Below, in pieces: positions 1,567-25,905 of a stretch of 42,918 nucleotides of DNA; the first letter of the stretch is position 1; each line of letters starts with the position of its first letter. The stretch is from NCBI GenBank assembly GCA_012522505.1, contig JAAYKJ010000165.1:1-42918 (forward strand). The letters are read 5' to 3'. A program made the translations under genes and the position numbers. The notes beneath the pieces are model-generated. The model saw only the letters and a list, made by a program, of their open reading frames with translations, did not search any database and was not told the origin of the DNA. Source of the stretch: Clostridiaceae bacterium (GTDB lineage: Bacteria; Bacillota; Clostridia; DSM-8532).

Positions 1567-1936
1567 TTCCCGAAAAACTGCATTCCTTCATTTTTGTTAT
1601 CCAACCGTTCCTTTTGTGAATATTGTGGAAAAGGAATAGTCTACAGGAAATATTACCGCTTGGGGCTGTGGATAAGTCTGTGGATGATGTGGATGAAACA
1701 GATCGTTTGTTCTGACAAAATGACAGATGGAATACCGATAACTTCATAAAAATACTGTCGTATGTTGTTAGAAAATGTCGCAATCGATCGGAAACGAGAG
1801 GACTTACAGACGAATACTGCAACTGATGAAGAAGTTATCCACAATGGCAGATATTTTGCTAAATGATGGAATCAAAGAAATTTTATATGGGTGCTGGCAG
1901 GAAACCAAGGGGAATGTGTCAGATAAGATGCAATGT
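1567..1936. other. Gene-free region with a cluster of DnaA boxes
   Basis: There is no supportable gene between tsaD and the convergent transglycosylase gene. On the minus strand a consensus DnaA box reads as TGTGGATAA at 1667-1675, followed by two one-mismatch boxes TGTGGATGA at 1679-1687 and 1688-1696, the last two directly abutting. A further consensus box TTATCCACA lies on the + strand at 1835-1843. DnaA boxes are 9-mers with consensus TTATNCACA. No dnaA, dnaN or recF gene is adjacent, so this is more likely a titration or regulatory cluster than the replication origin. Confidence 0.55.
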
Positions 1937-17505: not shown

Positions 17506-17514
17506 TGATATAAT
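17506..17514 (+). promoter_or_regulatory. Extended -10 promoter for the TolC-like pair
   Basis: TGATATAAT is an extended -10 (TGN plus perfect TATAAT). The -35 position has only a weak TTTTAA-like match. The remainder of the gap 17397-17618 shows nothing else. The leader to the TTG start is about 100 bases. Confidence 0.5.
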
Positions 17515-17618
17515 TGGATTACGAAGTGAAGCCTGGAGAAATTCACATATATTACGATAGGGCTACAGGGATCATCTGTAGATATGCAAGGATAATTCAT
17601 GGTAAAGGAGGGCTTGTC

Positions 17619-18794
17619 TTGAGAAAGAAATGCGTTGCTTTGGCAGTTATTGCGGTAAACGCAATATTGGCTTTATTACCGCAGGCTCACGCGGCTTCCG
17701 ACTCGGGTGGAATTTTAAGCCGCCAAATGGCGACTGCTTTGATAAGAGAAAATGCCACAGCGATATGGGATGCCCGGGAAAACATCCGTTTTGCGAAAAA
17801 AGCCTATGAGACTCAAGCTCTGAGATCTGAAAGTATTGATACTAAAAAGACCACCTTCTACAATCCTTTTACCAAAGAGGATGAAAACTACTATTATGAT
17901 GCTACTACGCAAATGCAGCTGCGGCTCGCTAAGGAATTTATACCCGCACAATTGAAATATGTCTGGGAAGTCCGTCAGAAAGCCCTTGCGGTTACCGGGA
18001 ACGCCATGGCAAATGCGGCAGACAACCTTTATATAGGCTTGTACAGTGCCTATCAGAATAAAATTTTGGCAGAGAAATCCCTTGAGCTGGCAAACAGGTT
18101 GTTTGAGCGAGAAGAGGTGCGTTATAACAATGGTCTGATTACAGCACTCGATCTGGAAGGGGCCAGGCTTGATGTACAAACCCACGAAAACGCAATCATC
18201 AAGGCGAACCGAGATTATGAAAACATACACCGGCAGTTTAACCGCCTTGCCGGGCTTGAGCTGAACTACCGGTACGATTTGGTTGGGACGCCTTGGGTTA
18301 GCCATAACAAGATTTTAATTACCGAAGAGCAGGCTGTTTCCAGTGCGCTGAAAAACAGAATGGAAATTTGGGATCTTGACCAGCAAATACGGTTAACACT
18401 TACGAAGCTTACGATATATCAGCATGAAAACGTCAATAAATATGATCCAAAGACCAAGGAAGACTATGAAAAAGCGCTGGATGAGATGGAAGATCTGAAA
18501 CTAAAGCTGGCTGAGCAAAAATATTCCATTGAAAAAGAAATCAGACAGGCCTATCAAGACTTGAAAACCAGTTATCTGGATCTGGAAATTGCCAAGCTTG
18601 AATTTGCAAAGCAGAAAAATCAGCTTGAGACTGTGTCGAAACAATATCATCAGGGGTTGGTTCCCATTTCGGTTGTGGAACAGTTGGAGAATGCGGTGAA
18701 TCAGCTGGAATATGCGGTAAACATGAGTATGATTACCACCTTGATCAAACAGGATCAATTCAGTCGCGCGATCTCTGTTGGGCCAGGATATTGA
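17619..18794 (+). CDS. TolC-like exported coiled-coil protein 1
   Basis: The TTG at 17619 is placed by AAAGGAGGG at a 6-base spacing and yields a signal peptide (KKCVALAVIAVNAILALLPQAHA); upstream codons in frame encode no sensible protein. The mature part (391 aa total) is mostly helical, with heptad-like coiled coil at about 60-220 and 290-380. It shows the two TolC-type repeats: a turn motif YNNGLITALDLEGARLDVQ in the first half and YHQGLVPISVVEQLENAVNQL in the second. In diderms such proteins form outer-membrane efflux channels. In a presumed monoderm clostridium they are exported, but their role is unknown. A second TolC-like gene starts 19 bases on. No membrane-fusion protein or pump gene is adjacent. 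Confidence 0.8.
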   Translation: MRKKCVALAVIAVNAILALLPQAHAASDSGGILSRQMATALIRENATAIWDARENIRFAKKAYETQALRSESIDTKKTTFYNPFTKEDENYYYDATTQMQLRLAKEFIPAQLKYVWEVRQKALAVTGNAMANAADNLYIGLYSAYQNKILAEKSLELANRLFEREEVRYNNGLITALDLEGARLDVQTHENAIIKANRDYENIHRQFNRLAGLELNYRYDLVGTPWVSHNKILITEEQAVSSALKNRMEIWDLDQQIRLTLTKLTIYQHENVNKYDPKTKEDYEKALDEMEDLKLKLAEQKYSIEKEIRQAYQDLKTSYLDLEIAKLEFAKQKNQLETVSKQYHQGLVPISVVEQLENAVNQLEYAVNMSMITTLIKQDQFSRAISVGPGY

Positions 18795-18813
18795 TTCTGA
18801 GAGGAGAATGAGA

Positions 18814-19914
18814 ATGAAAAGAATTGCTGTTTTAGTGCTGTTGCTTGTCTTTGTTACAGGCGTTATGGTTTATGCTGAAGAGGCCATAACAACATTTACA
18901 TATGAATCCGCACTGGAGACTGCGGTTAAAAATTCGATTCAGCCCGCACTGGACGATTACAATATCAAGTCAAAGGAAAGCGCCTTAAAAGATGCGAAGG
19001 ATGAAGCGATAAAAGGATTTATCGGAGGAACGCATCAGGAGGTAGTGGAAAGAACCATCATTAAAGAAGTAGCTCCTTTTGAAGCGGAAACTGCGCTTGA
19101 AGTGGCCCGACGGCAGAAATCGGATCATGAGCGGCAATTGAAAGCCGATGTCTATCAGGAGATGATGCGGGTTCTGCTGGCACAGGACAATGTTGCGCTG
19201 AAGAGAGAGAAGCTTGCCCTGATCGAAGAGAAATTCAGAATTGATACCATACAGTTTCAGGAGGGGCTGATATCAGAGGCCGATATTACGAATGAGGAAT
19301 TAGCTCTATCTGTTGAGAAGCTGGATTTGGTCAAAATGGAAACCACCCTGAAATCAAATATCCTGGATATTAAAAAGAGGCTTCATGTTGATTTGAGTGA
19401 TGAAAACCAGATTGAATTCGATTATGAGCTACAAAAGGTCGCTACACATTATGTTCTGGACTTTTTCGATATTGATAAGTCCATTGAAAAAGCGCTTTTG
19501 GAGGATACAGAGGTATACAGCAGGCAAAAAGCTGTGGAAGCGGCCCGCATGAAATTCCAGATTACACAGGAATATATTAAACCTGGTTTGGATTATTACG
19601 ATAAAAAAGCTTATGAGCTCGAAGCTGCCCAAAAAGCTTTGTATGATGCAAAAACCGAACTCGAGGTTTCCATCCGCAATGCACACAGTGATCTTTTGAC
19701 AGCGCTCGATTCTCTGGAGCTGGCCAATAAGCGACTGGATCTGGAAAACAGCAGGTTGGCGGCCTTAAAGGTGAAACATAATGCCGGGATCATCAGTCGA
19801 AGAGATATGATTGATACCGAAATCAACGTGGTGACAAGAAAACAGGAAGTACTGCAGGCAATCTGCGACTTTAACATAAAAAATGACATCCTCAGAAACT
19901 TAATCGGAGAGTAA
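18814..19914 (+). CDS. TolC-like exported coiled-coil protein 2
   Basis: The protein is 366 aa. GAGGAG at 18801-18806 fits the ATG at 18814 better than the ATG at 18808. The N-terminus is a signal peptide ending near VMVYA. The remainder is highly helical and charged, with TolC-type turn motifs FQEGLISEADITNEELALS and KHNAGIISRRDMIDTEIN. It is a diverged paralogue of the preceding gene: same length class, same two-repeat plan, little residue identity. It is the last gene of the pair, followed by a terminator-like hairpin. Confidence 0.8.
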   Translation: MKRIAVLVLLLVFVTGVMVYAEEAITTFTYESALETAVKNSIQPALDDYNIKSKESALKDAKDEAIKGFIGGTHQEVVERTIIKEVAPFEAETALEVARRQKSDHERQLKADVYQEMMRVLLAQDNVALKREKLALIEEKFRIDTIQFQEGLISEADITNEELALSVEKLDLVKMETTLKSNILDIKKRLHVDLSDENQIEFDYELQKVATHYVLDFFDIDKSIEKALLEDTEVYSRQKAVEAARMKFQITQEYIKPGLDYYDKKAYELEAAQKALYDAKTELEVSIRNAHSDLLTALDSLELANKRLDLENSRLAALKVKHNAGIISRRDMIDTEINVVTRKQEVLQAICDFNIKNDILRNLIGE

Positions 19915-20024: not shown

Positions 20025-20504
20025 ATGTCTGTAACCGTAGTTGGTGTTTTTGACAGAGTGGATTACGCTGAAAAAGCTGCCAGGGAGATAAAGGAGCGAG
20101 GTCTTAGGACCGATGATATTTCCATACTGGTTAAGAATGAAGACCAGACACAATCCAGTGGTATGAAGGGAATGGTTAATGACAACATGTCCAACGGTGC
20201 TGTAACGGGTGGCGTTATTGGTGGCCTTGCCGGTCTTCTCATTGGTGCCGGACTGGTTGCCATACCCGGACTTGGTATCATTGCTGCCATGGGTCCCATA
20301 TCAGGTCTTATCGGAGGTGCTGCAACCGGTGGTATAATTGGTGGCCTGGTAGATATGGGTATTCCTGAAGCAGAAAGCAAAGAGTATGAAACCGATATCC
20401 GAGGCGGTAAGGTTGTTTTTACAATGAAAGCTGAGGAAGAGAAAGCAGATGAAATTAAAAATATTCTTCAGGCAAACGGTGCTGAAAAAGTGAATCAACA
20501 TTAG
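20025..20504 (+). CDS. Glycine-zipper general-stress-type protein (YflT / DUF1269-like)
   Basis: The protein has 159 aa. Residues 1-45 resemble the YflT/general stress 17M fold (VVGVFDRVDYAEKAAREIKERG, then DDISILVK). Residues about 60-120 are a glycine-zipper hydrophobic stretch (GAVTGGVIGGLAGLLIGAGL and GGAATGGIIGGLVDMGIP) able to insert in or associate with membranes. The C-terminus (GGKVVFTMKAEEEKADEIKNILQANGA) is the usual domain ending. Function is unknown; homologues respond to general stress. The ATG at 20025 follows AAAGGAGAG. It is monocistronic. Confidence 0.8.
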   Translation: MSVTVVGVFDRVDYAEKAAREIKERGLRTDDISILVKNEDQTQSSGMKGMVNDNMSNGAVTGGVIGGLAGLLIGAGLVAIPGLGIIAAMGPISGLIGGAATGGIIGGLVDMGIPEAESKEYETDIRGGKVVFTMKAEEEKADEIKNILQANGAEKVNQH

Positions 20505-20780
20505 ATCCTGAAATCACTAAAGTGCGGCTGCCAGGCAGGCTTTGGCTGTTACCGGAAATTGTGTTACCGCTCTGTAAGCCTGATGATCACATCATCAACA
20601 AGGCGATATAGACGGGGCTGTCTATACATCCATTGTCTGCCCTGCAGTATTTTCCAAATCTCTTTTTATGCTATTACAACACGCACCTGGCTCCACTTGT
20701 ATGTTCTGCAATATTCGTCCGGGCACCTGTAAATCCCATATCTATGAGCCTCGGTTTAATTACATTTCAGAACGGCTATA

Positions 20781-20809
20781 TTGTAAACCTGTAACCGATT
20801 AATTATATT
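20781..20809 (+). promoter_or_regulatory. Candidate sigma-A promoter upstream of the DnaA boxes and hpf
   Basis: TTGTAA at 20781-20786, 17 bases, then TATATT at 20804-20809. Its transcript would cross the DnaA boxes and reach hpf after about 395 bases. Confidence 0.4.
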
Positions 20810-20867
20810 TTGTTGCGGTGACAAACCCTGTATTTTAGTATTTGATGAGAGGGAACCTGTGAAAAAC

Positions 20868-20929
20868 TTATCCACAACTCAAAACACTATAATAGCAAGT
20901 TATACACAAACTTATCCACATTATCCACA
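20868..20929 (+). promoter_or_regulatory. Cluster of four DnaA boxes
   Basis: TTATCCACA occurs at 20868-20876, 20912-20920 and 20921-20929, and TTATACACA at 20900-20908. All four are on the + strand and match TTATNCACA perfectly; the last two abut. A weaker reversed box TGTGGATGG is near 20967-20975. A/T-rich DNA surrounds them. No replication-initiation gene is nearby. Confidence 0.75.
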
Positions 20930-21211
20930 AGAACAAAACCCTTGTTTTATCATAAGCTGTGTTGTTTGTGGATGGGAAATGTGAATAATAGCAGACCGCA
21001 ATCAGATTGGGGGCAGAAGCAGGCTAAACGCCTTTTCTCTACCATAGGTTGGCAGCATATACACAGATTGGAAGAACAAGGGTTGTTTATTCCTGCTCAA
21101 CCGGGGTAAAAATATGGTAAAATAGAACCAAGGAAACGCTTTATGTTGGTCGTAATTCCCTCGCAGGGGAAAAGCAATTGCATGAGCAAATATCTGAAAG
21201 GGGATGTTAAG

Positions 21212-21742
21212 ATGAAGTACATCGTCAGCGGGAAAAACACTGAGGTTTCAACTGCCTTAAGGGAGCGTGCCATCAAAAAACTCAGTAAAATTGAGAAGTT
21301 TTTTAAAGGGGACGCCGAATGTCATCTCACCTTTGAGATCGAAAAAAACCGACATATTTTAGAAGTCACGATTTTGTCCAAAGGAATTTTTATTCGGGCC
21401 GAAGAAACAACAGATGATATGTATGCCTCAATTGATGCAGTAATCGATAAGCTGGAACGACAGATCAGAAAAAACAAAACGAAATTGGGTAAAAGGATCT
21501 ATCAGGAAGGTGTTATACCCGATAATTTTCTCATAGATGAAAACATAGAAGAAGAGAGCAATTATAAAATAATGAAAAGCAAAAGGTTTGCCATAAAACC
21601 CATGAGCGTTGAGGAAGCTATCTTGCAGATGAACCTTCTTGGCCACACTTTCTTTGTGTTTTCCAATGGGGATACTGAAGAAGTGAATGTTGTATATAAG
21701 CGCAAGGATGGGAATTATGGCCTGATAGAGCCGGAATTTTAG
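21212..21742 (+). CDS. hpf: Ribosome hibernation promoting factor, long form
   Basis: Long HPF (176 aa) dimerises ribosomes into inactive 100S particles in stationary phase. The N-terminal S30AE domain (residues about 1-100) has the family pattern MKYIVSGKNTEVSTALRERA and LEVTILSKGIFIRAEETTDD, MYASIDAVIDKLERQIRK. After a short linker, the C-terminal dimerisation domain reads RFAIKPMSVEEAILQMNLLG and HTFFVFSNGDTEEVNVVYKR. The ATG at 21212 follows AAAGGGGATG; an upstream in-frame ATG at 21143 has no good ribosome site. It is monocistronic and ended by a strong terminator. Confidence 0.95.
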   Translation: MKYIVSGKNTEVSTALRERAIKKLSKIEKFFKGDAECHLTFEIEKNRHILEVTILSKGIFIRAEETTDDMYASIDAVIDKLERQIRKNKTKLGKRIYQEGVIPDNFLIDENIEEESNYKIMKSKRFAIKPMSVEEAILQMNLLGHTFFVFSNGDTEEVNVVYKRKDGNYGLIEPEF

Positions 21743-25869: not shown

Positions 25870-25905
25870 CAGGGCCGCCCGGAGAGAGGAATTGAGGTGG
25901 TAAAC

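Follow-up and report, generated by a model that had tools for sequence, protein, structure and literature searches.

The locus and its DnaA boxes

The window analysed here is a stretch of 42,918 nucleotides from the draft genome of a Clostridiaceae bacterium, in which hpf follows a gene for a YflT-domain protein. The initial annotation described the interval between them as gene-free, and this is borne out: the YflT-like reading frame stops at 20504, and the most likely start of hpf, judged from its homologues, is 21212 rather than 21143 as given by the ORF tool. The four same-strand DnaA boxes that had been noticed in this interval are all present on the plus strand (TTATCCACA at 20868, 20912 and 20921, the last two abutting, and TTATACACA at 20900), and are the core of a larger element at 20857–20989. 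This contains six TTWTNCACA boxes between 20858 and 20988, in the arrangement < 10 > 32 > 12 > 9 > 59 < (start-to-start distances), of which the initial annotation had four of the six; the palindrome, the conservation and the cluster at tsaD described below were found only in the follow-up. The features of the interval and its flanking genes are as follows.

20025–20504, plus strand: upstream neighbour, YflT-domain protein; conserved as a neighbour only in genera g1, g3 and g6 (loci examined)
20857–20989, plus strand: full composite element; matches the sequence-only model R1 with E 2.3e-20, a value that is not independent, this element being one of the 28 copies from which the model was built
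20858–20866, minus strand: outermost 5′ DnaA box, TTTTTCACA; one base before box 1, with which it forms the inverted pair TGTGAAAAA-c-TTATCCACA
20868–20876, plus strand: DnaA box 1, TTATCCACA
20900–20908, plus strand: DnaA box 2, TTATACACA; starts 32 bp past the start of box 1
20912–20920, plus strand: DnaA box 3, TTATCCACA; 12 bp beyond box 2
20921–20929, plus strand: DnaA box 4, TTATCCACA; abuts box 3
20933–20948, no strand: inverted repeat ACAAAACccttGTTTT, a degenerate version of the palindrome CACAAAACANNTGTTTTGTG
20967–20975, minus strand: degenerate box TGTGGATGG, within a block conserved in the sister species (20965–20984 at 85% identity)
20980–20988, minus strand: leftward DnaA box TTATTCACA, 59 bp beyond box 4; the closing box of the element
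21084–21124, plus strand: probable promoter region of hpf (GTTTAT...GGGGTAA..TAAAAT); the other conserved block of the interval, distinct from the element
21212–21742, plus strand: hpf, long-form ribosome hibernation promoting factor (Pfam PF02482 and PF16321; start from homologues)

Identity between the window and its sister species (G001), taken per 20 bases, is 55–90% over 20865–20984 and mostly 5–60% in the surroundings. It rises again to 95% in the promoter-like block at 21105–21124, which has poorly conserved flanks and lies about 100 bp beyond the end of the array. Because identity is high in both and mostly low around them, the element and the promoter-like block are two distinct conserved parts. 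The sigma-70-like pair just upstream of the boxes that was initially proposed as promoter-like (20781–20809) is at chance level, with 4 sites against 2.2 ± 1.5 expected; sigma-70-like pairs and terminators throughout 20500–21260 are at or below chance in number, and no known RNA element was found in the window at Rfam gathering thresholds. Further upstream, at 17514–19914, are two adjacent genes of the OEP (outer-membrane-efflux-protein) family, in a genome that otherwise looks Gram-positive; these are conserved in g3 and g6.

Within the window TTATNCACA occurs 10 times against 1.78 expected, a count that shuffled sequences never reach, and strict boxes per 150 bp have a maximum of 1 in any shuffled window (40 shuffles). 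The whole draft genome (3,287,973 bases in 276 contigs) contains TTATNCACA 186 times, compared with 88 for the reversed control; a same-orientation pair with an N0-30 gap occurs at this site only (reversed control, 0). The genome-wide count of clusters suggested by the initial annotation thus reveals no scatter of equally dense box pairs; the closely spaced pair is unique here and the cluster is not one of many in the genome. Judged from their sequence, the boxes are very likely bound by DnaA. The DnaA protein encoded by this genome contains KRSR...PRQMAM...GGKDHTTVLHA, which we take to be the usual box-reading motif.

Conservation and placement of the element

Homologues of hpf are present in 58 of the 61 genomes of family f1, the window's own genome counted, and 30 hpf loci were compared. 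The array precedes hpf, with the same inverted pair and near-identical spacing, in all 8 genomes of g1, g3 and g6 that have upstream sequence. G010 carries a 44-9 spacing variant, eroded versions are found in genera g2 and g7, and in G011 and G014 the array is absent upstream of hpf. Outside the family, at least two strict boxes lie within 600 bp upstream of hpf at 15 of 80 named loci (3 of the 80 have less than 600 bp of upstream sequence), including those of Sporosalibacterium faouarense, Thermobrachium celere (12-9 spacing) and one Hungateiclostridiaceae genome; most Paenibacillus and Clostridium loci in this set have no such boxes in the 600 bp. Of 246 class genomes, 13 have the three-box spacing pattern, a single time each (control, 0), and one of these matches, in G186, sits before dnaA. 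At L178 (G054:C189), the genes flanking the three-box array are those for a TetR-family protein and homoserine dehydrogenase, and hpf is on another contig. The 12-bp-spaced pair is found in 74 of the 246 genomes at 112 places, of which 45 are at most 12 kb from dnaA, 20 at most 6 kb from hpf and 47 elsewhere. Pairs of this kind therefore belong to DnaA sites in general, and what sets the element apart is the longer array.

At E ≤ 0.001, model R1 has matches in 257 of 392 class genomes, the weaker matches including other clusters and oriC since the model consists mostly of DnaA boxes. Placement was assessed from the best match per genome among the 150 matches listed, which represent 129 genomes at E ≤ 3e-7. 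Among these listed matches, the best is located upstream of hpf at a distance of no more than 700 bp in 60 of 129 genomes, belonging to 21 families, and is co-oriented with hpf in every one of the 60; 51 of them, in 19 families, gave nothing to the model. The remaining 69 divide into 13 within 6 kb of hpf, 41 on another contig (a class that may conceal adjacency to hpf, the genomes being mostly drafts), 9 elsewhere and 6 in which hpf was not found. At E ≤ 1e-12 (54 genomes), 28 are upstream of hpf, 11 within 6 kb, 11 on another contig, 1 elsewhere and 3 without hpf. Genomes of f26 (L213, L304; G153, G211, G245, G289, G349) have 3–5 R1 matches each, some of them 100–300 kb from dnaA and off hpf, and thus multiple related DnaA sites per genome.

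The 30-34 / 12 / 9 spacing inside the element is preserved in most aligned copies from many families, whereas the distance to hpf ranges from 16 to 663 bp. The upstream neighbours vary: YflT-like or SCP-like in f1, SPL in f2, FUR in f16, zf_Tbcl in f5, f20, f21, f22, f26, f36, f40, f61, f73 and f84, and other genes elsewhere, with FlgN among the nearest genes in f23, f75 and f85 (the SCP-like label was read from sequence; the Pfam, blast and neighbour surveys covered loci whose flanking stretches were examined). Several families part the element from hpf. An ABC-transporter operon lies between the two in f5, f36 and most f40 genomes; in f20 the operon comes after the element, with hpf on the other strand; and in f48 (drafts) element and hpf are apart. 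The element of f22 is beside zf_Tbcl and away from hpf in 5/5 genomes, being on another contig in the four drafts and about 1 Mb distant in the complete genome, and here an ABC-transporter operon stays with the element in 3/5 and a sigma-factor gene is nearby in 4. The link to hpf is therefore strong but not obligatory.

The fourth rightward box is followed in several families by ATNCACAAAACANNTGTTTTGTGNAT, in which two convergent degenerate boxes flank a fixed core. The full palindrome CACAAAACANNTGTTTTGTG is present as a single copy in each of 7 of the 246 class genomes (reversed control, 0), and in all seven it is within the element, five times before hpf and twice beside zf_Tbcl. The degenerate copy in the window is the only match to ACAAAACNNNNGTTTT in its 42.9 kb. 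A Spo0A box (TGTCGAA) was also considered as a part of the element and was rejected: although there are 12 sites in the vicinity of 40 copies where the remainder of those loci would predict about 2, the reversed control yields 9, and f1 has none. Spo0A-box-like TGTCGAA sequences are located 49–70 bp upstream of the first counted box in f5, f20, f40 and one f22 genome (L169, L170, L171, L176, L236, L237, L238, L228).

The tsaD cluster and the position relative to oriC

A further group of boxes lies near the start of the window.

1615–1696, minus strand: second DnaA-box cluster, 3′ end of tsaD; ATATTCACA, TTTTCCACA, TTATCCACA and two TCATCCACA, arranged > 9 > 12 > 43 > 9 >
1835, plus strand: additional box near the tsaD cluster, TTATCCACA; the whole region spans 1615–1843

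In G065 and G046, tsaD is followed by clusters in this position with similar spacing, and in G261, G220, G071 and G202 by 12-bp pairs. The gcp (tsaD)-ydiF region is among the strongest DnaA-bound regions of B. subtilis according to part of the published account (PMC4447404). The window's cluster occupies this same position and relatives have similar clusters, which supports both sites in the window as extra-oriC DnaA clusters. The tsaD gene itself (541–1560), normally essential, has an in-frame TAA at 1324–1326 with the frame open beyond it; this may be an assembly error, a pseudogene or a real truncation.

That the cluster upstream of hpf might be an origin, as the initial annotation allowed, does not survive inspection of its chromosomal context. 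GC skew has the same sign on both sides of 20.9 kb, and dnaA, dnaN, recF and gyrB are grouped on another contig, C251 (names other than dnaA read from translations), where boxes are found between dnaA and dnaN with one more upstream of dnaA. The complete G010 genome, of the same family, was sampled in 19 stretches and keeps one skew sign between dnaA and 1.37 Mb and the opposite one over 1.5–2.77 Mb, so that the sign switches at dnaA and between 1.37 and 1.5 Mb. There is no skew change at its hpf, which is located at 2.584 Mb, inside one arm and 390 kb from dnaA. The element thus has neither the change in skew sign nor the dnaA/dnaN context of an oriC. The related description of the boxes as lying away from any replication gene is right for dnaA, dnaN and gyrB, all on the other contig, but not for dnaX, which starts at 25897. 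Boxes, skew and dnaA context together give good support to a DnaA-box cluster outside oriC, which was the type of site first proposed. In all 7 one-contig class genomes for which both positions are known, the element is 8–25% of the chromosome from dnaA; since hpf itself tends to lie near the origin, also in genomes without the pattern there, this position is weak evidence. The window's own genome is a draft in which the element cannot be placed relative to the origin.

Candidate roles of the element

The comparative data suggest that the element controls the amount of free DnaA, ribosome hibernation, or both; of the two functions offered in the initial annotation, titration of DnaA and a DnaA-controlled hpf promoter, each stays a candidate. 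Our preferred reading, to which we give roughly an even chance, makes it an autonomous site of DnaA assembly outside oriC, akin to the B. subtilis clusters and restraining initiation. With six consensus boxes clustered outside oriC it resembles the dense B. subtilis clusters at ywlC, ywcI-vpr, gcp-ydiF, yqeG-sda, yydA and trmE-jag, and the parts of two reports that bear on this describe early initiation on deletion of six DnaA-box clusters in that organism (PMC5295017, PMC13220808). An autonomous site is favoured because the internal spacing is fixed while the distance to hpf varies, and element and hpf lie apart in several families; the non-promoter position of the tsaD cluster in the same window points in the same direction. 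The conserved architecture consists of an inverted box pair, three further close direct boxes, the palindrome and the closing leftward boxes. DnaA would most likely load cooperatively on boxes 2-3-4 and draw box 1, together with the inverted boxes on either side, into an ordered complex; as a cluster of the origin-proximal type, the element would keep DnaA off oriC and so restrain initiation. Against an autonomous titrator, pure titration needs neither fixed spacing nor a palindrome, and something more specific may be involved. Likewise, a co-oriented site upstream of hpf in 60/129 genomes with listed matches, next to a variable gene on the other side, is more than a free-standing titrator needs. 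The top regions listed for B. subtilis, in the part of that work consulted, include none at hpf/yvyD, whereas here one fixed-spacing array with its palindrome recurs across many families.

The main alternative, which we hold tentatively as the less probable of the two, is that DnaA on the array represses or activates an hpf promoter 100–250 bp downstream, as at the DnaA-controlled sda promoter of B. subtilis. Ribosome hibernation would thereby be linked to how much of the replication initiator is present or to its nucleotide state. The co-oriented placement directly upstream of hpf, including the 51 genomes from 19 families outside the model set, argues for such control, as do the differing upstream neighbours (YflT, SCP-like, SPL, FUR, zf_Tbcl, FlgN and others) and the finding that the conserved intergenic parts in the sister species are the element and a separate promoter-like block. 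Placement relative to hpf is not constant, however, either in distance or, given the separations in f5, f20, f22, f36, most f40 genomes and f48 (drafts), in adjacency; the window's array stops short of the promoter-like block; and a word search in the main text of the paper on genome-wide DnaA binding in B. subtilis gave neither hpf nor yvyD. With the element found immediately before hpf in 21 families, the idea stays alive. The sda promoter is alike in having boxes ahead of a gene that comes into play on arrest of growth or replication; here, the target would be a ribosome hibernation factor, and the distance to the gene is variable. If the element is an autonomous site, a side effect on hpf is possible.

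Somewhat more doubtful is a broader version, in which a class-wide composite element and a putative partner reading the palindrome couple the initiator to ribosome hibernation, setting ribosome sleep via hpf. Replication capacity and translation capacity would then be switched together through DnaA upstream of hpf. Our literature search combining DnaA boxes and hpf, yvyD or ribosome hibernation turned up no statement of a link of this kind, and the portion consulted of a 2024 paper on replication-initiation arrest in B. subtilis (PMC11019786) mentions neither hpf nor yvyD.

We consider it improbable that the element alters the nucleotide state of DnaA in the manner of DARS or datA, a helper protein at the palindrome then taking the place of IHF or Fis. 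Ordered inverted and direct boxes, fixed spacing and an extra conserved palindrome would suit such a site. The 12-bp-spaced direct pair is shared with E. coli DARS1 and DARS2, but their three-box core, > 14 < 12 <, is not present in the window element, where no 12-spaced pair is accompanied by an inverted box at 14, and identity with DARS was rejected on this ground. E. coli datA is alike as a non-coding DnaA-box cluster away from oriC; its minimal form includes an IHF site, according to part of the source (PMC5742627). No helper protein is known here. It is very improbable that the boxes are sites for another protein reading TTATNCACA-like sequence: a dimeric regulator would fit the inverted pair and the palindrome, but the nine-base consensus, the occurrence of single sites in both orientations and the 12-bp-spaced pairs that also mark the dnaA region (45/112 places) speak against it. 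A main or second replication origin is the least credible reading of all, since the dense boxes and A/T-rich surroundings that would favour it are set against the skew and the dnaA context given above.

Extra-oriC DnaA clusters have been described mainly from B. subtilis and E. coli. A single element of fixed spacing with its private palindrome, traceable over many families, offers a comparative handle on the role of such sites, and its recurring place before hpf raises a directly testable link from the replication initiator to ribosome hibernation.
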